NCBI RefSeq assembly: GCF_007004735.1
Contig: NZ_SSNL01000004.1
Location: 62,001-126,000 of the forward strand
DNA length: 64,000 nucleotides
DNA from: Salinigranum halophilum
Lineage (GTDB): Archaea; Halobacteriota; Halobacteria; Halobacteriales; Haloferacaceae
Reading direction: 5' to 3'
Shown piece by piece: positions 5,271 through 18,015 of this stretch. A model generated the notes under the pieces. The model saw only the letters and a list, made by a program, of their open reading frames with translations, had not been told where the DNA came from and made no database searches. The translations under genes and the position numbers were made by a program. Every line of letters begins with the position of its first letter. Within the stretch, counting starts at the first letter, position 1.

Positions 5271-5662
5271 CTGCACGTCACCGGAATCGACCACCTCGTC
5301 CTGTACGCGACCGACGTCGAACGGACCTGTGAGTTCTACGCGGAGACCTCGACGTGGTGACCGTCGAGACGTTCGCCGGCGGTCGCGTCGCACTCTCGTT
5401 CGGTACCACGAAGCTCGACCTCCACCCCGCTGGCGACGAGTACGAGCCACACGCTGCCGACCCCGCGCCGGGGTCGGCCGACTTCTGTCTGGTCGTCGAC
5501 GAGCCGATTCGGGCCGTCGTCGAACGAATCGAGAGTGCCGGCGTGTCGGTCGTCGAAGGTCCCGACACCCGGTCGGGTGCGCGTAGCGAGATGGCGTCGG
5601 TTTACGTCAGAGACCCGGACGGGAACCTCGTGGAGTTCGCTCACTACCGAGAACCCGAGTGA
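5271..5662 (+). pseudogene. VOC (glyoxalase/bleomycin-resistance) family gene with frameshift and no normal start
   Basis: Two adjoining frames together encode one VOC-fold protein. Frame 3 gives HVTGIDHLVLYATDVERTCE and then the start of a helix; frame 2 continues from about 5348 with LDVVTVETFAGGRVALSFG and ends VYVRDPDGNLVEF, the typical last VOC strand. Restoring one C in the CC run at 5347-5348 would fuse them as AETLDVV. In addition, no ATG, GTG or TTG precedes the first beta strand in frame; only CTG at 5271 fits. The intact family binds a divalent metal and acts as dioxygenase, lyase or resistance protein. It may be a true pseudogene, or an intact gene with a sequencing error and a CTG start. 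Confidence 0.7.
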
Positions 5663-5692
5663 GACGGGGGCGAACGGCGAGAACAGCGAGCC

Positions 5693-6865
5693 TCAGTCGT
5701 CGGAGGCGACCGGCGTGGCCTGCTGTGCGTCGTAGCCTTCCCGTTCGAGGCCGTCCGCGAGCGCCGAGAGGACGTACTCGACGTTCTTCTTTCGAGCCGA
5801 ATAGCCCATGCAGCCGATGCGCCAGATGTCACCCGCGAGGTCGCCGAGCCCGGAGGCGATCTCGAGGTCGTACTCGTCCAGCAGGTACGAGATGACCGCG
5901 CCGTCGTCGACGCCGTCGGGGACGCGCACCGCGTTCAGCGAGGGAAGCCAGTACTCGTCGGGCGCGTTCATCTCGAGGCCCATGGCCTCGAGCCCCGACT
6001 TGAGTTCGCCCGCGACCGCCAGATGGCGCTCCCAGCGGTTCTCGATGCCCTCCTCAGCCACCAATCGGAGCGCCTCGCGCAGCGCGTAGACGTTCGTCAC
6101 GGGGGCGGTGTGGTGGTACGCGCGCTCGTCGCCCCAGTAGCCTTCGAGCAACGAGAGGTCGAGGTACCACGACCGCGGCTCTTCCTCGCGGGAGAGCACC
6201 TTGTCCATCGCGCGGTCGCTCAGCGTGAGCGGCGACGCACCCGGCGGGCAGGAGAGACACTTCTGCGGCCCCGAGTAGGCGACGTCGACGTCCCACTCGT
6301 CGACGCGGAGTTCGACGCCGCCGAGGGAGGTGACGGAGTCGGCGACGACGTACGCGTCGTGGCTGTGGGCGATGTCGGTCAGTTCGGGGACGTTCGGCTG
6401 CTTCACGCCCGTCGAGGTCTCGGCGTGGACGAACCCGAACACGTCGGGCTGGTGTTCGTCGAAGGCCGCCTCGACGTCGACGGGGTCGAGCGGTTCGCCC
6501 CAGGGTGCCTCGACGTGGACGACGTCGCCGCCGGCGCGCTCGGCCATCGACGCCATGCGGCCGCCGAAGTAGCCGTTCGTCGGCACCAACATGGTGTCGC
6601 CGGGCTCGACGAGGTTGCCGATGGCGGCCTCCATCGACGCCGACCCCGTCCCCGAGACGGGGATGGTCCACTGGTTGTCGGTCCGGAACGTGTACCGGAG
6701 GAGCTCTTGGACCTCGTTCATGATGTCGATGAACGAGGGGTCGAGGTGGCCCACGAGCGGGGTGCTCATCGCGCGAAGCACGCGGGGGTGGACGTCGCTC
6801 GGACCGGGGCCCATCAGGGTCCGGTTCGGGGGTGTCAACTCGCCTACGTCTGGTGCTTCGTCCAT
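5693..6865 (-). CDS. Class V aminotransferase (alanine-glyoxylate / serine-pyruvate type)
   Basis: A 390-residue PLP-dependent enzyme of fold type I. The N-terminal PPNRTLMGPGPSDV block, the cofactor-binding ADSVTSLGG with Asp176, and SGPQKCLSCPPG with the Schiff-base Lys202 match the AGXT/SPT family, as does the total length. It should transfer amino groups among alanine, serine, glyoxylate or pyruvate in the cytoplasm. The ATG at 6865 is preferred over an ATG three codons upstream because a TATA-like GATTTTTCA lies about 27 bases before it, as for a leaderless transcript. It diverges from the alpha/beta hydrolase at 6968. The exact substrate is not decided by these motifs; purine-catabolic or glycine-forming roles are known in the family. 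Confidence 0.88.
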   Translation of the reverse strand: MDEAPDVGELTPPNRTLMGPGPSDVHPRVLRAMSTPLVGHLDPSFIDIMNEVQELLRYTFRTDNQWTIPVSGTGSASMEAAIGNLVEPGDTMLVPTNGYFGGRMASMAERAGGDVVHVEAPWGEPLDPVDVEAAFDEHQPDVFGFVHAETSTGVKQPNVPELTDIAHSHDAYVVADSVTSLGGVELRVDEWDVDVAYSGPQKCLSCPPGASPLTLSDRAMDKVLSREEEPRSWYLDLSLLEGYWGDERAYHHTAPVTNVYALREALRLVAEEGIENRWERHLAVAGELKSGLEAMGLEMNAPDEYWLPSLNAVRVPDGVDDGAVISYLLDEYDLEIASGLGDLAGDIWRIGCMGYSARKKNVEYVLSALADGLEREGYDAQQATPVASDD

Positions 6866-6886
6866 ACACCCCATCGAGAGTCCCGG

Positions 6887-6896
6887 GTGAAAAATC
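6887..6896 (-). promoter_or_regulatory. TATA-like element of the aminotransferase gene
   Basis: The reverse strand reads GATTTTTCAC here, centred about 27 bases upstream of the ATG at 6865. This spacing fits a leaderless haloarchaeal promoter and decides the start codon chosen for that gene. Confidence 0.5.
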
Positions 6897-6940
6897 CGTA
6901 TGAATCGTTCGCCCGGCCGCGCCGGGACCACACAAAGTAT

Positions 6941-6951
6941 CATTAGTATTT
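6941..6951 (+). promoter_or_regulatory. TATA-like element of the alpha/beta hydrolase gene
   Basis: CATTAGTATTT lies 22-26 bases before the ATG at 6968 in an AT-rich pocket between divergent genes. This fits a leaderless promoter. Confidence 0.5.
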
Positions 6952-6967
6952 CACTCCATTCGACGGT

Positions 6968-8383
6968 ATGGCTCACCTCGAGACTCCGACGGTCCACCGC
7001 CTCCTGGCGTCGCCGCTCGGCGGCGTGCTCGACACCGCGTGGTTCGAGCGGCTGAAGACCCGGTCGCTCCGGCGGGAGTTCGCGCTCCAGCGCGCCCGGG
7101 CCGCGGCCGACGTCGCCCTCGGCGCGTCCCCCCGGGAGTACCTCCGCGCGGTGGGGGCTCCACCCGCCCCACATCTCTCGGGTCGCATCGAGTCCGCGCT
7201 CGCTGCCTACGCGTCGCGGCGGGAAGCCGCGCTCGACGCCGCCGACCGGTGGCACGAGGTCCTCTGGGACCCGTCCTCGTCGGTCGACGACCGTCTCCAC
7301 GCCGAGCGCGAGCGGCGGCGGGCCGAGCACCGCCGCCGTGACGTCGCCGACGTCTTCGGCTTCCTCGTCGACGACCACCTCGTCCCGCCCGTCGACTACG
7401 CCGTTCCCGCCGTCGACGCCGTGCGCTCGAAGTACCACACCGACCTCGCCGCCCCCGGAGAGGTCTACGGCGTCTCCGAGCGGTTCCCGCGCGTCGAGCG
7501 CTCCGACTGGGTCCCCGGGCCGGGCACCGCCGAGTACTGGCTCCGGTTTCTTACCCCGTCGCCGTACGTCTCCGACGACGCCGTCGCCCGGGTGTACGAA
7601 CCGCCCGACGCCGGCGACGACCTCCCGACACTCGTCTTCTACGGCGGGCTAGGCATGGTGAACGACTGCGCCGCCTACTGGCCCGAGGAGGCGTACCTCG
7701 GCCGCGCGCTCGCGTCCGAGGGGGTTCGCGTCGTCCTCCCCGACGCCCCGTGGCACGGACGGCGCGAACCGCTCGGGCGGTTCAGCGGCGAGTCGTACCT
7801 CGCCCGCGCGCCGGAGTCGATGTTCCAGCTCTACGCGACCGCGACCGTCGAAGCCGGCTGCTTCGTCGACTGGGCGCACGCGGAGGGGTCGACCGTCGCC
7901 CTCGGCGGTGTCAGCCTCGGCGGCATCGTCGCGATGCACGTCGCAGGACGCTGTGGCTCGTGGCCCGCGTCGGCCCGTCCCGACAGCGTCGTCCCCGTGG
8001 CGGCGACGGGCGACGTCGACGCCGTCCTCGTCGAAGGCGACCTCTCGCCCCTGCTCGACCTCGACGACGTGCTCCGTGGGGCGGGCTGGTACCCGCACCT
8101 GCACGAACTGAGCCCGCTGTTGAACCCGCCCGAGTCGTGCGGACTCGACCCCGACCGGGTCTTCCCCGTCTTTGGCCGTCGAGACACCCTGGTCCCGCCG
8201 CACACGCTCACGGCGACGCTCGACGCGTGGGGCGTGCCGGCCGAGAACCGGACCGCCTGGGACACGGGCCACTTCGGCACGCTCCTCCGCTCGATCCGCG
8301 GCGACCTCACGCCGGTGGTCGAACGGGCGCTCGCGGTGGACGTCGCCGGACAGACGACACCCACCGACGCCGTGACGCCGTGA
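6968..8383 (+). CDS. Alpha/beta hydrolase family protein
   Basis: A 471-residue cytoplasmic protein whose C-terminal half (about 200-450) is an alpha/beta hydrolase. It shows an oxyanion-type YGGLG turn near 225, the nucleophile elbow GGVSLGG with Ser316, an acid candidate Asp406 in FGRRDTLVP, and the His435 of DTGHFG, in that order. The N-terminal 200 residues are charged and helical with no motif recognised. Ester, lactone or amide hydrolysis is expected but the substrate is unknown. Start choice is supported by a promoter element at 6941-6951. It lies 64 bp upstream of the metallo-hydrolase at 8448, in the same direction. Confidence 0.8.
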   Translation: MAHLETPTVHRLLASPLGGVLDTAWFERLKTRSLRREFALQRARAAADVALGASPREYLRAVGAPPAPHLSGRIESALAAYASRREAALDAADRWHEVLWDPSSSVDDRLHAERERRRAEHRRRDVADVFGFLVDDHLVPPVDYAVPAVDAVRSKYHTDLAAPGEVYGVSERFPRVERSDWVPGPGTAEYWLRFLTPSPYVSDDAVARVYEPPDAGDDLPTLVFYGGLGMVNDCAAYWPEEAYLGRALASEGVRVVLPDAPWHGRREPLGRFSGESYLARAPESMFQLYATATVEAGCFVDWAHAEGSTVALGGVSLGGIVAMHVAGRCGSWPASARPDSVVPVAATGDVDAVLVEGDLSPLLDLDDVLRGAGWYPHLHELSPLLNPPESCGLDPDRVFPVFGRRDTLVPPHTLTATLDAWGVPAENRTAWDTGHFGTLLRSIRGDLTPVVERALAVDVAGQTTPTDAVTP

Positions 8384-9718: not shown

Positions 9719-10318
9719 TTACTCGAACAGCTCGACTGCCTGCTCGTAGCGGGCTGCGGGCTCGTCCCAGTCGACGACGTCGAAGAACGCCGAGACGAAG
9801 TCGCCGCGGGCCGGGCCGTAGTCGTAGTAGTACGAGTGTTCCCACACGTCGAGTGCGAGGACGGGGTGGCTGCCCCAGAGCGCGCCCTGGTCGTGCTTGT
9901 CGACGACCACGTTGCGCAGCTGGTTCGAGAACGAGTCGTAGACCAGCAGGGCCCAGCCGCTGGCTGCGCCGGCTGCGGCCTCGAACTCGCCCTTCCACGC
10001 CTCGTAGGAGCCGAAGTCCTCCTCGATTCTGTCGGCGAGCGCACCGGAGGGCCCGTCGCCACCCTCGGGGGACATGCACTGCCAGAACAGGTCGTGGAGG
10101 ATGTGCCCACAGCCGTTGTGGGTGACGTTGCGGATGGCACCCGCAGAGGAGCCGAACTCACCGTTCTCGCGGTTCTCTGCGAGCGTCTCCTCCGCCGCGT
10201 TCCACCCGTTTACGTAGCCCTGGTGGTGCGTGTCGTGGTGCCAGGTGAGCACCTGCTCGGAGATGCTGCCTTCGAGTGCGTCGTAATCGTACGGTAATGG
10301 GTCGAGTTCGTAGCTCAT
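9719..10318 (-). CDS. sod: Superoxide dismutase (Mn/Fe family)
   Basis: A 199-residue cytoplasmic enzyme that dismutes superoxide to oxygen and peroxide. The four metal ligands are visible: His27 in TWHHDTHHQGYV, His74 in CGHILHDLFW, and Asp156 and His160 in LDVWEHSYYYDYG. Length and the conserved DQGALWG segment match the haloarchaeal enzymes, usually Mn-dependent. Unusually for this region the gene has a clear Shine-Dalgarno GGAGG (10325-10329, six bases before the ATG) and a TATA-like TTAACCTTTAAC further out, so its mRNA has a short leader. It is divergent from the MFS gene at 10414. Confidence 0.96.
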   Translation of the reverse strand: MSYELDPLPYDYDALEGSISEQVLTWHHDTHHQGYVNGWNAAEETLAENRENGEFGSSAGAIRNVTHNGCGHILHDLFWQCMSPEGGDGPSGALADRIEEDFGSYEAWKGEFEAAAGAASGWALLVYDSFSNQLRNVVVDKHDQGALWGSHPVLALDVWEHSYYYDYGPARGDFVSAFFDVVDWDEPAARYEQAVELFE

Positions 10319-10321
10319 GAT

Positions 10322-10366
10322 ATTCCTCCGTTGTACGAGTAGGACGGAACGCTGTTAAAGGTTAAG
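10322..10366 (-). promoter_or_regulatory. Promoter and ribosome binding site of sod
   Basis: Reverse-strand CTTAACCTTTAACAGC (10351-10366) is a TATA-like element. CGGAGGAAT (10322-10330) gives a perfect GGAGG ribosome binding site. Together they predict a leader of roughly 10-15 bases, in contrast with the leaderless layout of most genes nearby. Confidence 0.55.
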
Positions 10367-10413
10367 AAGAGGTATGTTAACAGCGTACATACACTTTCGA
10401 GGGCGGTGATGTC

Positions 10414-11636
10414 GTGCGGTTTCCGGCCGAAGCCGGAGGGCACTTGTGCTCCCTCACCCGAGTCCCGACCGTGACGTGGCGAGGTGTCGGCGTCGTGAGT
10501 GGCTGGCAGGTAACGGCGAGTCTGTGTTTCTACGCCATCTTCGCGGCGACCGCCTTCGTCCGCGAGAGTTTCGGCGTCTCGCGCACGCTGGTCGGCGTCT
10601 CGCTCACGGCGACGATGGCCGGCTACACCGCGTGCTTGTTCCTCACCGGTGCGGCCGTCGACGGCTACGGCGAGCGGCCGGTGATGGTCCTCGGTCTCGC
10701 CGCGCTCGCGGCGGCGATGGTCGGCGTCGCGCTCGCGCCCTCCTTCTCACTGCTGCTCGTCGCCCTGGTCGTCGTCGGCTGCGCGTACGCGACGGGATGC
10801 CCGCGACCAACCGCGCCGTCATCGTCGTCGCACCCGCCGAGCGGCGGAACCTGGCGATGAACGTCAAGCAGGTCGGCGTCACCGCCGGGAGCGGCCTCGG
10901 CGCGCTCCTCGTCACGAGTGCGGCCGGCACGCGCTACGGCTGGCGGGTCGGCTTCGGCGTCGCCGCGGTGCTGGCCGTCGTCGTCGCCGCCGTCTTCGCG
11001 ACGACGTACCGTGGTCGCGCCGGGTCGGGCGACCTCTCGCCGCCCGATCTCCGCGGCCTCGCCGGCCTCGCGGGCTACCGTCCGCTCGTCGCCGCCGGCT
11101 TCTTCCTCGGTGCCGCGGTGTTCACCACCACCGGCTACGTCGTGCTCCACCTCACCGAGTCGGTCGGCGCGGCCGCAGCCGTCGGTGGGCTGGTGCTCGC
11201 GGGTGTGCAGGTGACGGGGAGCCTCGGCCGTCTCGTCGGCGGGAGCGTCGCCGACGCGCTCCCCGGGAGCAACGCGCGGGCCTCGGCGCGGGTGCTCGTC
11301 GTCCAGGCGCTCCTCGCCGGCGTCGCCTTCGGCGGGGTCGTCGCTGCCGGGACGCCCGCGACAGCAGGCGTCGCGTTCGCCGTGCTCGGCCTCTTCATCC
11401 TCGGCTTCCCCGGCGTCTACTACGCCTGTCTCACCGCGCTCGTCCCCGACGACCAGGTCGGGGCGGCCACCGCCGGCGGACAGACTGCGCTCAATCTCGG
11501 CGGCCTGACCGCCCCGCCGGTCTTCGGCTTCCTCGCCGACACCCTCTCGTACGACGCGGGCTGGACGCTCCTCGCCGGCTGTACGCTCGTTGCCGGCGCG
11601 TTACTCGTCGGCCTCGCCCGCGACGAACACGCGTGA
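10414..11636 (+). pseudogene. MFS transporter gene interrupted by a one-base frameshift
   Basis: The first five or six membrane helices are in frame 1 from the GTG at 10414 (GTG at 10471 is an alternative start) to about 10795, ending GCAYATG. The second half runs in frame 3 from about 10797 (MPATNRAVIVVAPAERRNLA) to the TGA at 11636. Adding one G to the GGG at 10794-10796 joins them as ATGMPATNRA, the normal continuation of an MFS carrier of about 400 residues. Hydrophobicity and codon bias are intact on both sides, so either the mutation is very recent or it is a sequencing error. The last 36 bases overlap the end of the convergent DJ-1 gene. Confidence 0.8.
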
Positions 11637-12239
11637 GGGGTCGGTGTCGTACTCCAACTCCCGTGCCACCCGGTCGGCGACGTCGGCCCCGAAGTACCGA
11701 CCCACGAGGTGCAGCGCGAGGTCCAGCCCGGAGGTGATGCCGCCGGCGGTGAGGACGTCGCCGGTGTCGACGATGCGGGCGTCGACCACGTCTGCGTCGG
11801 TCGCCCGCAGGTCGTCAAGCGCACTCGCGTGCGTCACGGCGGGCCGCCCGTCGAGGAGTCCGGCCTCGGCGAGGAGCATCCCCCCCGTACAGACGGCGGC
11901 GACTGTCGAACCCGCCTCGGCGCGCTCGCGCACCGCCTCGGGAACCGCCCCGCGCTCTGCCTCGCGGCGAGCACCCGGTCGGTCGTCACCGGCGTTCCAC
12001 CCGCCACCGGGGACGACGAGTACGTCTGGCGCGTCGAGCACCCCGTCGACGCCGATACGGAGTCCGTGGCTCGCGGTCACCAGCGCTCGCTCCTCGAGCG
12101 TGACCGTCCGAACCGCGACGTCCCCGCCGAACGCCCCCGCCGTCTGAAACACCTCGTACGGTCCGACGCCGTCGAGTTCGTCGAACCCGTCGTAGAGTAA
12201 CACCTCGACCTCGACCGTCGACTCCTGCGTCCGGCTCAT
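11601..12239 (-). CDS. DJ-1/PfpI (GATase1-like) family protein
   Basis: A 212-residue protein of the ThiJ/PfpI fold. EVEVLLYDGFDELDGVGPYEVF contributes the acidic residue near Glu21, VLVVPGGG follows, and AAVCTGG places the nucleophile-elbow Cys117, followed by the conserved THAS. Family members are chaperones, isonitrile hydratases or glyoxalase-like enzymes, often linked to stress; the substrate is not evident here. The ATG at 12239 begins directly before the first beta strand. The 3' end overlaps the convergent MFS gene by 36 bp. Confidence 0.87.
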   Translation of the reverse strand: MSRTQESTVEVEVLLYDGFDELDGVGPYEVFQTAGAFGGDVAVRTVTLEERALVTASHGLRIGVDGVLDAPDVLVVPGGGWNAGDDRPGARREAERGAVPEAVRERAEAGSTVAAVCTGGMLLAEAGLLDGRPAVTHASALDDLRATDADVVDARIVDTGDVLTAGGITSGLDLALHLVGRYFGADVADRVARELEYDTDPSRVFVAGEADE

Positions 12240-12370
12240 GAGTAGACTGAACCGTGGGTCCCCCCGCGCAAAACGTTTGGCACCGGGACTGCCCGTCAGG
12301 CAGAGCCGTCCGTGCTTCGGGTGCCACCGTGTGGCGCACACCGCTCGCTCAGCCGGGATGAACAGGCGAC

Positions 12371-12380
12371 ACGTTATTAT
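12371..12380 (+). promoter_or_regulatory. TATA-like element before the exported NEW3/CARDB protein
   Basis: ACGTTATTAT is centred about 25 bases before the GTG at 12400. This supports a leaderless transcript and that start, although the ATG at 12418 is possible. Confidence 0.45.
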
Positions 12381-12399
12381 CGCCCGCTGTCGAAGATGA

Positions 12400-14031
12400 G
12401 TGAATACTCAACCTCATATGGCCCCGACACGCTCACTCCTCACTGTCGTCGTCGCCCTCCTCGTCGTCCTCTCGGGCCTCCCCCTCGCGAGCGCCGCGGA
12501 GAACCAGGTCATCGGCCGGCCCGACCTCTCGCTCTCCGTGCCGGACAACCGTGTCGCCCCCGGCGAGGCGACCACCCTCAGGGTGGCCGTCGTCAACGAC
12601 GGCGTCATCGTCCGCGGCGGCCCCGAGCGGTTCACCGAGCGAGTCACGACCGCTCGCGCGACGACTCTCGACGTCGGCGAGGTCCGTGGCCTCGACGTCG
12701 AGACGGAGAGCGTCGCCGTCGGGCAGGTCCCCGAAGGCGTCGTCGGCCCCGTCGAGATCGACCTCACCGTCCCCGAGTTCGTCCCGCCCGGACGGTACGA
12801 ACTCCCGGTCACGGTCTCGTACACTTACACCGGCACGGTGACGTACGACGAGGCGACACCGAACGACAACCCCCGGTTCAACGACCGCTCCGTGACGCGA
12901 CGGCTCACGATTCCCATCGTCGTCGAGGACCAGGCCCGCTTCCGGGTCGTCGGCGTCGACACCGGCGTCCAGGTCGGTGCCAACGGGACCATGGCCGTCT
13001 CGGTGCGGAACGTGGGGACCGACCCCGCCCGCGAGGCGAGCGTCGGACTCACCTCCGCCAACAGCGACCTCAGTTTCGGTGGCGTCGCCACCGCGGAGAG
13101 CTTCGTCGGGACGTGGCGACCCGGGGAGACGCGGACGGTGACCTTCCCCGTCGCCATCGCCGCGGACGCCGAACGCCGTGACTACACGCTCACCGGCGCG
13201 GTCACCTACACCGACACCGACGGCATCGTCCGGACCTCGAACGAACTCCGGACCAGCGTGCGCCCGCTCGCCGAGCAGTCGTTCTCGCTCGCGGACGTCT
13301 CCTCCTCGTTGCGCGTCAACTACGAGGGCACCGTCGAGGGGACGGTGACGAACGAGGGGCCGTCGCCGATTTCCGACGCCGTCGTCGTCCTCCGGCCGGC
13401 GAGCGCCAACTTCGACGCGAGTGAGACGGAGTTCGCCATCCCCGATCTCGCCGCGGGCGAGTCGGCCGACTTCGCGTTCGACGTCGAGGTGTCGAGCGCC
13501 GCCGACCCCGGGTCGAGACAGCTCTCCTTCGCGGTCCGGTACGAGAACGAGGACGGCGACACCCGAACGAGCGACCCGCTGACCGCACGAATCCAGGTCG
13601 ACGCCGAGCGCGACCCCTTCACCGTCGAGGCCGACGACTCGACCCTGGCCGCCGGCGACTCGGGACGGCTGACCCTGACGGTCACCAACACCGAAGACGA
13701 GACGCTCTCGGACATCTCGGCGAAGCTGTTCGTCGACGACCCCATCTCGTCCAGCGACGACGAGGCGTTCATCGACGCACTCGAACCCGGTGAGTCCGCC
13801 GAGGTCACCTTCCAGATAAGCACCGCGGGCTCGACATTCGCCAAGGACTACCCGGTCTCCGTCGACTTCGAGTACGACCGCGAGGATGGCACGACGCAGG
13901 TCTCCGACTCGTTCAGACTGCCCGTGACCGTCGAGGAGTCGTCCGGCGGCGGCTTCCCGCTCGGCCTCGTCGTCGGCGTGGGTGCCGTCGTCCTCATCGG
14001 TGCGGCGGTCGTCGTCGTCCGGCGGAGGTGA
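12400..14031 (+). CDS. COG1361-type exported S-layer-like protein (NEW3/CARDB domains), partner of the RND transporter
   Basis: A 543-residue exported protein. Residues about 8-32 form a signal peptide (SLLTVVVALLVVLSGLPLA, then SAAE). The body is a chain of beta-sandwich modules of the CARDB/NEW3 type, recognisable from repeats such as VSVRNVGTDPAREASVGL, GTVTNEGPSPISDAVVVL and LTVTNTEDETLSDISAKL, each followed by a PGE-type turn. The C-terminus is one membrane helix ending RRR, after SSGGGFPLG. It should therefore stand outside the cell, anchored at its C-terminus. It ends 9 bp before an RND/MMPL transporter, so the two are surely cotranscribed, and an extracellular adaptor role is inferred. 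Confidence 0.85.
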   Translation: MNTQPHMAPTRSLLTVVVALLVVLSGLPLASAAENQVIGRPDLSLSVPDNRVAPGEATTLRVAVVNDGVIVRGGPERFTERVTTARATTLDVGEVRGLDVETESVAVGQVPEGVVGPVEIDLTVPEFVPPGRYELPVTVSYTYTGTVTYDEATPNDNPRFNDRSVTRRLTIPIVVEDQARFRVVGVDTGVQVGANGTMAVSVRNVGTDPAREASVGLTSANSDLSFGGVATAESFVGTWRPGETRTVTFPVAIAADAERRDYTLTGAVTYTDTDGIVRTSNELRTSVRPLAEQSFSLADVSSSLRVNYEGTVEGTVTNEGPSPISDAVVVLRPASANFDASETEFAIPDLAAGESADFAFDVEVSSAADPGSRQLSFAVRYENEDGDTRTSDPLTARIQVDAERDPFTVEADDSTLAAGDSGRLTLTVTNTEDETLSDISAKLFVDDPISSSDDEAFIDALEPGESAEVTFQISTAGSTFAKDYPVSVDFEYDREDGTTQVSDSFRLPVTVEESSGGGFPLGLVVGVGAVVLIGAAVVVVRRR

Positions 14032-14040
14032 GACGACGCC

Positions 14041-16566
14041 GTGGCACCGAAGGTCGAGTACCAGCGACTCATCGACGCGGCCGACGGGTGGATCACGGGC
14101 CGGCCGGGCACCGTCGTGCTCGTCTTCGTCCTCCTGACCGCCGGGTTCGCCGCGGGCCTCCCCGCCGTGTCGACCGAGTCGGGCACGGAGCAGTTCTCCG
14201 AGGACGTCCCCGCCGAGCAGGCGCTACAGGACGTCAACGACAAGTTCTCCGACCCGTTCGCACCCGACGAGGGGTCGACACAGCTCATCCAGCGCAACGA
14301 GAACGTCCTCTCGAAACAGGGGCTGCTCCGGATGCTCCGCGTGCAAGAGCGGATGGCGAACGAACCGGACATGCGCGTCGTCTCCACCGAGAGTGCTGCC
14401 CGCCTCGTCGCCCGCCAACTCGACCCCTCGGCGTCGACGCTCGAAGCGGAGATAACGGCCGTCGAACGCGCCACGCCCGGTGAAATCCGCGTCGCCGTCG
14501 GCACCCTCACCCGCGAGAACCCCGGCTTCGCCTCGCTCCTGAGCGACGACTTCAATCCGACAGCGGCGTCCGCCTCCGCGACGGTCGGTGTCGTCCGCCA
14601 CGAGGTGCCGAGCGGCATCTCGGGCGGGTCGGGACAGGGCGGGGCCAGCCCGCTCGAACCCATCCAGCTCGAGGCGGTGTACATCGCCGACGCCGCCGGC
14701 GGCGACATCGTCGTCTTCGGCTCGGGTGTCATCGCCCAGGAGTTCGGCACCGTCATCGGCGACTCGCTGCTCATCGTCGTCCCCGCCGCCGTGTTCTTCA
14801 TCATCCTCTTTCTCGTCGTGGCCTACCGCGACCTGGTCGACCTCGTCCTCGGGACCGTCGCGCTCGGGATGGCCATCGTCTGGACGTTCGGCTTCATGGG
14901 CTTCGCCGGTATCGCGTTCTCGCAGATCCTCATCGCCGTGCCGCCGCTCCTGTTGGCTGTCGGGATCGACTTCGGCATCCACGCCATCAATCGCTACCGC
15001 GAGGAGCGCCTGGTCGAGGACGACCCCGTGACGGCGATGCGGACCACGACGGACCAGTTGCTCGTGGCCTTCTTCATCGTCACCGCCACGACGGTCATCG
15101 GCTTCTCTTCGAACCTCGTGAGCGGCCTCCTGCCCATCCGGGAGTTCGGCGTCGTCGCCGCCATCGGCATCACCTTCACCTTCCTCATCTTCGGCGTCTT
15201 CCTCCCCGCGCTGAAGCTGTACACCGACGAACTCCGCGAGCGCTACCCCATCCCGACGCTCTCGCAGGCACCCATCGGCTCGGAAGGCTCCTCGCTCGGC
15301 GGGGTGCTTTCGGGCGGTGTGACGATCGCACGGGTCGCCCCGGTCGTGTTCCTCGTGGTCGTACTCCTCGGCTCTGGGTACGCCGCGTTCTACGCGTCCG
15401 GCATCGACACGAGCTTCTCACAGGAACAGTTCCTCCCACCGGAGGAGACGGCCGACTACTACGACGTGCTCCCCGAGCCGTTCAAACCCGGCGAGTACAC
15501 CATCACGGCCACCATCAACTTCCTCGAAGACAACTTCGAGTCGAGCGAGGACGACGAGACGGTGGTCTTCGTGGAGGGACCGATGGAGCGGAACTCGGCG
15601 CTGGAGTCGATGTGGAACGCCGGCGAGGACCCCCCGGACACCTTCGTTCGCGACGGCCGCCACGCACGCGAGACGTCCATCGTGACCGTCATCCTCGCCT
15701 ACCAGGAGCGCGACCCCGCGTTCGACGCCCTCGTGGCGAGAAACGACCGCAACGCCAACGGCATCCCCGACCAGAACCTCGGCGAGGTGTACGACTACCT
15801 CTTCGCCTCACCTGCGAGAGGACAGGCCCTCGAGTACCTCACCGAGGACCGCCGGAACGCCCGGGTCGTCTACGCGGTGAAAGCCGACGAGTCCGACGGG
15901 GCCATCACGGACGACACCCGCGCCGTCGCCGAGCGCTACCGGATGGGAGCCACCGCGACGGGCAGCATCGTCGTGTTCAAGGCCATCTCGGACATCATCT
16001 TCGAGTCAGCCATCGTCAGCCTCGCGCTCGCCATCGCCGGGACCGCCGCCTTCTTGCTGTTCATCTACTGGCTCCTCGAGGGGAGGGCGACGCTGGGGCT
16101 CGCCAACCTCATCCCCATCGTCGTCACCGTCGCGTTCGTCGCCGGGTCGATGCGCTATCTCGGCTTCTCGCTCAACGCCTTCACCGCCACGGTGCTGGCG
16201 ATGACCATCGGACTCGGCATCGACTACTCCGTGCACCTCACCCACCGCTACATCGACGAGCGGGAGCTCCAGCCCACGGTCAGCGCGGCGCTCTCTCGGA
16301 CCGTCTACGGGACGGGCGGCGCGCTCTTGGGCAGCGTCCTCACCACGATGTTCGGCATCGGCGTCCTCGTCCTGTCGGTGTTCCCGGCCATCGGCGACTT
16401 CGGCCTCATCGCGGCCCTGTCGGTGTTCTACGCCTTCATGGCCTCGCTGCTCGTCTTACCCGCCGCGCTGGTCGTCTGGGAGCGGCTCTTCGGCGCGGGC
16501 GACATCGACGCCGCCACGCCGGGGGCGGCGGCCGACCGGTCGTCGGGGGCGACCCCGAGCGACTGA
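14041..16566 (+). CDS. RND/MMPL family transporter
   Basis: An 841-residue membrane protein with the duplicated RND layout: TM1 near residues 22-40, a large outer loop, a block of five helices (about 240-395), a second TM1-loop unit (about 435-660), and a final five-helix block (about 665-825). The two halves carry the SSD/MMPL-type motifs AVGIDFGIHAINRYREE and TIGLGIDYSVHLTHRYIDE, whose Asp residues are candidates for ion coupling. Family members move hydrophobic substrates such as lipids or isoprenoids. Translation begins at GTG 14041, just after the stop of the exported NEW3 protein, which implies joint function. The substrate is unknown. Confidence 0.9.
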   Translation: MAPKVEYQRLIDAADGWITGRPGTVVLVFVLLTAGFAAGLPAVSTESGTEQFSEDVPAEQALQDVNDKFSDPFAPDEGSTQLIQRNENVLSKQGLLRMLRVQERMANEPDMRVVSTESAARLVARQLDPSASTLEAEITAVERATPGEIRVAVGTLTRENPGFASLLSDDFNPTAASASATVGVVRHEVPSGISGGSGQGGASPLEPIQLEAVYIADAAGGDIVVFGSGVIAQEFGTVIGDSLLIVVPAAVFFIILFLVVAYRDLVDLVLGTVALGMAIVWTFGFMGFAGIAFSQILIAVPPLLLAVGIDFGIHAINRYREERLVEDDPVTAMRTTTDQLLVAFFIVTATTVIGFSSNLVSGLLPIREFGVVAAIGITFTFLIFGVFLPALKLYTDELRERYPIPTLSQAPIGSEGSSLGGVLSGGVTIARVAPVVFLVVVLLGSGYAAFYASGIDTSFSQEQFLPPEETADYYDVLPEPFKPGEYTITATINFLEDNFESSEDDETVVFVEGPMERNSALESMWNAGEDPPDTFVRDGRHARETSIVTVILAYQERDPAFDALVARNDRNANGIPDQNLGEVYDYLFASPARGQALEYLTEDRRNARVVYAVKADESDGAITDDTRAVAERYRMGATATGSIVVFKAISDIIFESAIVSLALAIAGTAAFLLFIYWLLEGRATLGLANLIPIVVTVAFVAGSMRYLGFSLNAFTATVLAMTIGLGIDYSVHLTHRYIDERELQPTVSAALSRTVYGTGGALLGSVLTTMFGIGVLVLSVFPAIGDFGLIAALSVFYAFMASLLVLPAALVVWERLFGAGDIDAATPGAAADRSSGATPSD

Positions 16567-16605: not shown

Positions 16606-18015
16606 TCAGTCGTCGCCGCGCGCTCGCTCGAACATCGCGAGCGCCTCCTCGCGCCGCTCGGCGTGGTCGACGATCGGTTCGGGGTAGTCGGGCGCGGCGT
16701 TGCGCCGCTGGAGCGCCGAGCACTCGTGCCACGAGTGGATGACCGAGGGGTCGACCCCCTCGAGTTCGGGGACGTAGGTCTTGATGTACTCGGCGTCGGG
16801 GTCGTACCGTTCTCCTTGCGTCATCGGGTTGAAGATACGGAAGTACGGCTGGGCGTCGGTCCCCGTCGAGGCGGCCCACTGCCAGCCGCCGTTGTCGTTC
16901 TGTGTGTCGTGGTCCGCCAGCAGGTTCCGAAAGTGGGCGTAGCCGTGCCGCCAGTCACAGAGCAGGTCCTTCGTGAGGAAGGAGGCGACGATCATCCGCA
17001 CCCGGTTGTGCATGTACGCCTCCGCTTTCAACTGCCGCATCCCCGCGTCGACGATGGGGTAGCCCGTCCGCCCTTCGCGCCACGCCGCCAGTTCCTCGGG
17101 GTCGTCGCGCCACTCGATGTCGTTCTCGTACTCCTTGAAGTTCTGTGAGACCACCTCGGGGTTGAAGAAGAGGACGTGGGTGTAGAACTCCCGCCACGCG
17201 AGCTGTGACTGGAACTCCTCGACCGACTCCCGTTCGTCCTCGCCGGCCGCGTCCATCGCTGCCTCCGTCGCGGCGTACACCTCGCGCACGCCCAGCGTCC
17301 CCCACTTGAGGTCGGTCGAGAGGCGCGAGACGGCGTCCCGCGTCGGGTAGTCCCTGTCGGAATCGTACCGGAAGATGCCGTCGTCACGGAATCGTGCGAG
17401 ACGCTCGCGGGCCGGCTCGGTGCCCGCGTCTGGAACGGTCGCGATGGGCTCTTCGAAGCCGAGGGCCTCGATGCTCGGCAGGGTGCCAGTGTCGTCGACG
17501 ACGCCCGGGTCGGCGAGACGGTCACTGGAGGGCTCGGCGTACGGCTCGGCCTTCTCGCGGTCGCGCCACTTCTTCCAGAAGTAGGTGTACACCGAGTACG
17601 GCTCGCCCTTGTTTGTCGTGATGGAGCCCGGTTCGTGGTGGAGGTGGTCGTGGACGCTCTCGCGGGCGACGTCCACCCCGTCGAGGGCCCGGCGAACCGC
17701 GGCGTCGCGCTCGCGGGCGAGGCCCGAGTAGTCCTTGTTCCAGCAGACGCGGTCCGCGCCGACATCGCGAGCGACCTGCGGGACGACCTCGCGGGGGTCG
17801 CCGTGGCGGACGACGAGGTCCGAGTCGAGCGCTCGATACCGCGCCCGCAGCGCGTCGAGCGCGTCGAGCATGTATCTGACCCGCGGTGCGCCCGCGTGTT
17901 CGAGGACCGCGTCGTCGAAGACGAAGAGCGGGACGACGGGTCCGGCGTCGGCGGCGGCCGCGAGCCCCCGGTTGTCTGCGGTCCGGAGGTCGCGGCGGTG
18001 CCAGTGAAGCTGCAT
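16606..18015 (-). CDS. phr2: Deoxyribodipyrimidine photo-lyase
   Basis: A 469-residue flavoprotein that splits cyclobutane pyrimidine dimers in light. The N-terminal Rossmann part binds an antenna chromophore (LHWHRRDLRTADNRGL, VCWNKDYSG). The C-terminal FAD domain shows SQLAWREFYTHVLF, TGYPIVDAGMRQL, HNRVRMIVASFLTKDLL and DNGGWQWAASTGTDAQPYFR, all diagnostic for class I CPD photolyases rather than plant-type cryptochromes. The length agrees with the experimentally known Halobacterium enzyme. It reads towards the RND gene and is separated from the divergent gene at 18305 by 289 bp. Light-protected surface life of haloarchaea explains its presence. Confidence 0.95.
   Translation of the reverse strand: MQLHWHRRDLRTADNRGLAAAADAGPVVPLFVFDDAVLEHAGAPRVRYMLDALDALRARYRALDSDLVVRHGDPREVVPQVARDVGADRVCWNKDYSGLARERDAAVRRALDGVDVARESVHDHLHHEPGSITTNKGEPYSVYTYFWKKWRDREKAEPYAEPSSDRLADPGVVDDTGTLPSIEALGFEEPIATVPDAGTEPARERLARFRDDGIFRYDSDRDYPTRDAVSRLSTDLKWGTLGVREVYAATEAAMDAAGEDERESVEEFQSQLAWREFYTHVLFFNPEVVSQNFKEYENDIEWRDDPEELAAWREGRTGYPIVDAGMRQLKAEAYMHNRVRMIVASFLTKDLLCDWRHGYAHFRNLLADHDTQNDNGGWQWAASTGTDAQPYFRIFNPMTQGERYDPDAEYIKTYVPELEGVDPSVIHSWHECSALQRRNAAPDYPEPIVDHAERREEALAMFERARGDD

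Follow-up and report, generated by a model that had tools for sequence, protein, structure and literature searches.

An Exported Chain of Ig-like Domains Encoded Next to an RND/MMPL-type Permease in Salinigranum halophilum: A Possible Adaptor-like Partner of Archaeal Exporters

Introduction

How single-membrane archaea use pumps that need periplasmic adaptors in bacteria is a question that is largely open. The closest described case is the HVO_A0466/HVO_A0467 gene pair of Haloferax volcanii, published in 2024 as conserved in 21 haloarchaeal genomes with matching phylogenies of its two members (PMC11349517). For the secreted member, the RND-T-associated protein, the paper gives an AlphaFold model with four immunoglobulin-like (Ig-like) domains and describes glycosylation, and siderophore export was proposed for the Haloferax homologue from docking and a 44-fold induction under iron starvation. 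We have analyzed a pair of this kind in Salinigranum halophilum, where the gene of an exported chain of Ig-like domains, called the partner below, directly precedes that of an RND/MMPL-type permease. It lies in a stretch of 64,000 nucleotides of contig NZ_SSNL01000004.1 (assembly GCF_007004735.1, positions 62,001 to 126,000), referred to as the window, in whose own numbering all coordinates are given. We propose, with a probability of roughly 50%, that this operon encodes an exporter together with a dedicated exoplasmic partner that acts in an adaptor-like manner, as a rod reaching toward the S-layer.

The nearest solved analogue is the mycobacterial MmpS4/5-MmpL4/5 system, in which the operon partner is likewise encoded 5' of an MMPL-type RND permease and is an all-beta extracytoplasmic protein with a single transmembrane (TM) anchor; the anchored beta-sandwich of MmpS stabilizes the MmpL trimer. 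MmpS differs, however, in having one sandwich and an N-terminal anchor, where the archaeal chain has four domains and a C-terminal anchor, and the long helical hairpin of MmpL4/5 is not seen in the archaeal permease model. The AcrA/MacA/EmrA adaptors are comparable in that one family serves RND, ABC and MFS exporters, with adjoining genes and TetR-type regulators. In contrast to these adaptors the archaeal chain is Ig-like throughout, returns no Pfam or NCBIfam match to HlyD, lipoyl, alpha-hairpin or beta-barrel domains, and has no outer-membrane channel to reach. There is no Pfam match to MmpS in the partner either and, judged by sequence, it belongs to neither the MmpS nor the membrane-fusion (HlyD/AcrA/MacA) families.

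Results

An earlier note, made from the letters of this DNA alone, had described an exported, C-terminally anchored multi-domain chain ending 9 bp before an RND/MMPL gene, and both open reading frames (ORFs), their spacing and the domains were recovered here. The ORFs span 12400-14031 (+ strand, 543 aa from GTG) and 14041-16566 (+ strand, 841 aa), with 9 nt separating the partner stop from the permease start and both in one frame. Although the first ORF does open at 12400 as the note had it, its start is better placed at ATG 12418 (537 aa), because a typical signal peptide, MAPTRSLLTVVVALLVVLSGLPLASA, begins there and a conserved TATA-like element, TTATTATC, lies upstream. The features of the two genes are the following.

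12418-14031, + strand: secreted protein of 537 aa with four Ig-like/NEW3-CARDB domains and an anchor at the C terminus (ORF, Pfam, structure model)
12418-12495, + strand: Sec-type signal peptide, residues 1-26 (by inspection)
12499-12921, + strand: putative Ig-like domain D1, distal (outside the structure model; extent from length and sequence)
12925-13272, + strand: Ig-like domain D2 (strands in structure model)
13273-13611, + strand: Ig-like domain D3 (strands in structure model)
13612-13941, + strand: Ig-like domain D4, membrane-proximal, with the best NEW3 and CARDB matches (Pfam, structure model)
13960-14022, + strand: C-terminal TM helix, then RRR (sequence, structure model)
14041-16566, + strand: RND/MMPL-type permease, 841 aa, 12 TM helices, two pseudo-symmetric halves (NCBIfam, Pfam, structure model)
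14968-14970, + strand: codon of TM4 Asp310 in GIDF (invariant, 84/84 rows)
16222-16224, + strand: codon of TM10 Asp728 in GIDY (Asp in 52/84 rows, Ala in 32/84)

Pfam matches of the partner are to NPCBM_assoc/NEW3 in three stretches (6.7e-18) and to CARDB (8.3e-12). Its family is presumably COG1361; a literature search pairing COG1361 with RND gave nothing. The AlphaFold model contains the Ig-like sandwiches D2-D4, one C-terminal helix, which would run with its N terminus outside and its C terminus inside, and then a 12-TM RND fold. Like the RND-T-associated protein, the partner has a signal peptide, four Ig-like domains (counting the putative D1), a C-terminal TM segment and an RND gene directly downstream. 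Set beside the description of the Haloferax pair in PMC11349517, the locus agrees in gene order, tight spacing, secretion, C-terminal anchor, number of Ig-like domains and type of permease, as well as in matched phylogenies and several paralogous pairs per genome.

For the permease, Pfam gives MMPL in two stretches (5e-30) together with sterol-sensing and Patched matches, and in Foldseek comparisons MmpL4/5 head the solved folds nearest to the model, with MmpL3, HpnN and NPC1 also found. With its two MMPL halves, 12 TM helices and large exoplasmic domains the protein is, as modeled, a member of the RND superfamily of the MMPL type. It shares two MMPL halves, 12 TM helices and the TM4 Asp motif with the HAE3/MMPL transporters (TIGR00921) and HpnN, and TIGR00921 is its best NCBIfam match (1.5e-59), but the score of 201.8 bits lies under the curated cut-off of 351.9 so that formal HAE3 membership does not follow. 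Both acidic residues for proton coupling (TM4, TM10) are present. Among the 84 related pumps counted above, the TM10 aspartate gives way to alanine in 32 whereas that of TM4 never varies.

Conserved adjacency of the two genes, the lack of which the earlier note had named as the main finding that would tell against it, was surveyed in 146 genomes of the order. Among the 150 best RND matches listed, 103 have a partner homologue immediately upstream on the same strand, with gaps of 3-462 nt between matches (match lists are the best ~150 rows, used as they stood), which is far beyond chance. Pairs in Haloferax were seen at ~40% (chain) and ~59% (RND) identity. The association of RND pump and partner is thus one already known and is reproduced here, and on the state of knowledge about such pairs the note is out of date, as they were described in 2024 (PMC11349517).

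The two genes are also inherited together. Over 96 pairs, distances in the partner and pump trees correlate at 0.525, whereas swapping partners within genomes gives a mean correlation of 0.326 and a maximum of 0.463, none of 500 swaps reaching the observed value. Co-inheritance with the cognate pump suggests specific recognition and, with conserved adjacency and an operon layout, supports part of the interpretation in the note.

The partner family is not specific to RND pumps but pairs with RND, ABC-2 and MFS exporters. In a tally made by hand over the 143 best partner homologues, with exemplars checked by Pfam and the other neighbor classes being profile hits plus sequence inspection, the neighbors are 108 class-I RND, 10 class-II RND (~750 aa), 8 ABC-2 (ATPase plus ABC2_membrane_2 permease) and 2 DHA2-type MFS exporters; 9 loci are of a Halorussus type, with the RND gene a few kb off across an S-layer gene, 4 have no exporter and 2 lie at contig ends. 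Three of these states occur in the host genome of the window, class-I RND at loci C3 and C2, class-II RND at C8 and ABC-2 at C5. When 67 partners are placed on a tree, loci of one clade tend to share the exporter class (9 changes vs a shuffled mean of 27.5), and the ABC-2 pairing needs at least 3 separate changes on supported branches; the class has therefore been swapped several times. The DHA2-type MFS pair is kept in two haloarchaeal genera, in one of them with a TetR gene alongside, and MFS pairing is found separately in methanogen genomes (L276, L280). An RND neighbor is present at 11 of 20 sampled methanogen-class loci.

Several other arrangements were seen around Ig-chain genes. At five methanogen loci (L279, L281, L285, L286, L288), from several families, a gene for a cupin-type glucose-6-phosphate isomerase, an assignment Pfam-checked in L279 only, follows in place of the exporter, and at three loci of one haloarchaeal family (L068, L148, L161) an exporter-less homologue stands amid conserved housekeeping genes, tpiA/pyrB-like by inspection. 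Locus L159 carries adjacent Ig-chain paralogues (5454-7079 and 10017-11294) that share an identical N-terminal stretch, with class I and class II pumps; the second reads as two pieces, and the arrangement suggests recombination between them. The layout at L080 (1-2306) resembles MacAB, with a 415-aa exported protein that has no Pfam match, then an ABC ATPase and a permease of FtsX type.

Partner genes are linked to S-layer genes in haloarchaea. Order-wide, 16 of 34 S-layer glycoprotein genes of the HVO_2072 family have a partner gene no more than 10 kb away vs 0.46 expected for uniform placement in a 3.5-Mb genome, and for a second S-layer family the count is 8 of 48 vs 0.57. One genus supplies 9 of the 16 linked cases and independent cases are fewer, amounting to ~ten genera and a handful of families. 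In Halorussus-type genomes (L085, L086, L164) the HVO_2072-family gene stands between pump and partner. That S-layer genes might lie near transporters of any kind was considered and rejected, a control set of ABC-2 permeases having given 0/42 near S-layer genes. The window itself contains an S-layer-like gene.

1-2235, + strand: S-layer glycoprotein-like gene (PGF-CTERM) whose 5' end lies beyond the window; a linked neighbor, outside the operon

This gene matches TIGR04216 with 236.8 bits over its whole available length (cut-off 400) and PGF_CTERM at 3.4e-12. A distance of 10.2 kb separates it from the partner gene, slightly more than the 10-kb limit. Loci C2 and C5 of the host genome also hold S-layer glycoprotein-like genes. 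For the bridge to the S-layer that the note had suggested, the clustering of genes in ~ten genera is indirect support; the contact itself is what we infer.

Turning to the surroundings of the pair, the flanking genes, DJ-1/PfpI (11601-12341) upstream and a photolyase (16606-18015) downstream, are on the opposite strand, and by this layout partner and permease therefore form a two-gene transcription unit. Both neighbors are also present in Salinigranum salinum, where the RND protein is 88% and the partner 78% identical. Two elements precede the operon.

12367-12381, + strand: promoter region CGACACGTTATTATC with the TATA-like element at 12374-12381; identical 15 bases upstream of the Salinigranum salinum orthologue
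12397-12410, no strand: short inverted repeat TGAGTGAATACTCA close to where transcription presumably starts; a possible operator that has drifted from the motif of the family

TetR or TrmB-type regulator genes adjoin many partner loci, and a palindrome near ACTGAACGNNCGTTCAGT (at most 4 mismatches) is found upstream in 20 of 123 cases (16%) vs ~1% of control windows, an enrichment of which a small part is circular since the motif was derived from two related loci, one inside the counted set. The inverted repeat of the window differs from this motif by 6 mismatches. TetR genes and operator-like palindromes fit efflux regulation.

A single stop usually lies between partner and pump (13929-14060 in the window), with a shared frame in 65 of 109 partner-pump pairs vs 81 of 209 (39%) other neighboring pairs. 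Programmed stop read-through and ancestral fusion were considered as its cause, and no natural fusion was noticed; the shared frame is probably due to sequence relatedness and a fixed stop-start spacing.

As far as the accessible part of PMC11349517 describes it, the published pairing concerns RND pumps only, in the 21 haloarchaeal genomes, where the present analysis also covers ABC-2 and MFS exporters, methanogens and S-layer linkage. In the literature searched, no earlier report was found of ABC-2/MFS pairing, S-layer linkage or enrichment of the TetR-type palindrome.

Discussion

In the mechanism that we propose, the permease, an RND/MMPL-type transporter that retains the TM4 aspartate found in proton-driven RND pumps, would transport outward; the product of the upstream gene is a rod, built of four Ig-like domains and anchored in the membrane. 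The rod would bind its cognate exporter from outside by way of the C-terminal helix and the membrane-proximal Ig domain, while the distal domains would cross the pseudo-periplasm to the S-layer, so that the rod might either hold the pump there or guide the product outward beyond the S-layer. The job done in bacteria by AcrA/MacA/EmrA, or by MmpS for MmpL, would then fall to an unrelated protein. More tentatively, and in our estimate rather doubtfully, the Ig-chain proteins may form a general archaeal class of adaptors that dock RND, ABC-2 and MFS exporters and tie them to the S-layer.

A number of observations weigh against an adaptor-like rod. Deletion of the Haloferax RND gene gave no marked phenotype (PMC11349517), and the only published hint to a substrate there is a siderophore; no pointer to the lipid or bile-salt-like substrate considered in the note emerged from this analysis. 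Among the 150 best RND matches in the order, 47 are without a listed homologue directly upstream, 17 of 30 methanogen RND loci are without a partner, and for most relatives of one ABC-2 permease there is no such gene in the vicinity. Only a minority of the pairs show S-layer linkage, and in methanogens, where S-layer and partner positions were compared by eye, none were close. Lastly, AlphaFold models were made of two pairs, fused into single chains by reading the stop as glycine. The complex that the note had envisaged was obtained in its parts but not as a whole, both parts folding well (pTM 0.69 and 0.60, about the value of independent parts) while their relative placement is without confidence and no interface is resolved. 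Made of one copy of each protein, these models neither support nor exclude binding.

The lack of a rigid complex in the fused models would suit a rod that serves as a substrate-binding or chaperone partner, capturing or delivering an amphiphile in the pseudo-periplasm in the absence of a stable complex or S-layer contact. Sandwiches of the NEW3/CARDB type commonly serve for binding or as spacers, and for a protein of this sort swaps among pump classes would be easy. However, co-inheritance with the cognate pump suggests specific recognition and the linkage to S-layer genes is left unexplained, and we consider this explanation unlikely. Much the same standing is given to a rod that is a structural accessory of the surface or S-layer, with the pump exporting a lipid or glycolipid to build or anchor the S-layer and the operon an S-layer assembly unit. 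S-layer glycoprotein genes adjoin the pairs in ~ten genera, and those of Halorussus type have one that separates the pump from the partner. This, the S-layer-like gene 10 kb off in the window and a weak NCBIfam match to 'putative S-layer protein' all point in this direction, yet the majority of pairs are not close to S-layer genes, those of methanogens are unlinked, and several paralogous pairs per genome with TetR-type control suggest condition-specific export. Co-location of envelope genes for co-regulation, with neither physical nor mechanistic coupling, is quite improbable, for although no interface is predicted in the fused models, many pumps have no adjoining partner and clustering of surface-protein genes may be general, the partner class is stable inside clades yet has switched repeatedly from one pump family to another, unrelated one, the co-phylogeny holds under the within-genome swap control and none of the ABC-2 control genes has an S-layer gene close by.

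Conclusions

What this analysis adds to the known RND pairing is the pairing of the Ig-chain family with several exporter classes and its linkage to S-layer genes. Were these proteins a general adaptor class, they would be a non-homologous counterpart of AcrA/MacA/EmrA, with the S-layer replacing the outer membrane. One Ig-chain family serving three unrelated exporter classes with a link to the S-layer would define a mode of export architecture in archaea that can be tested in Haloferax volcanii. Widespread proteins that are so far named only by their NEW3/CARDB domains would then also have a function.

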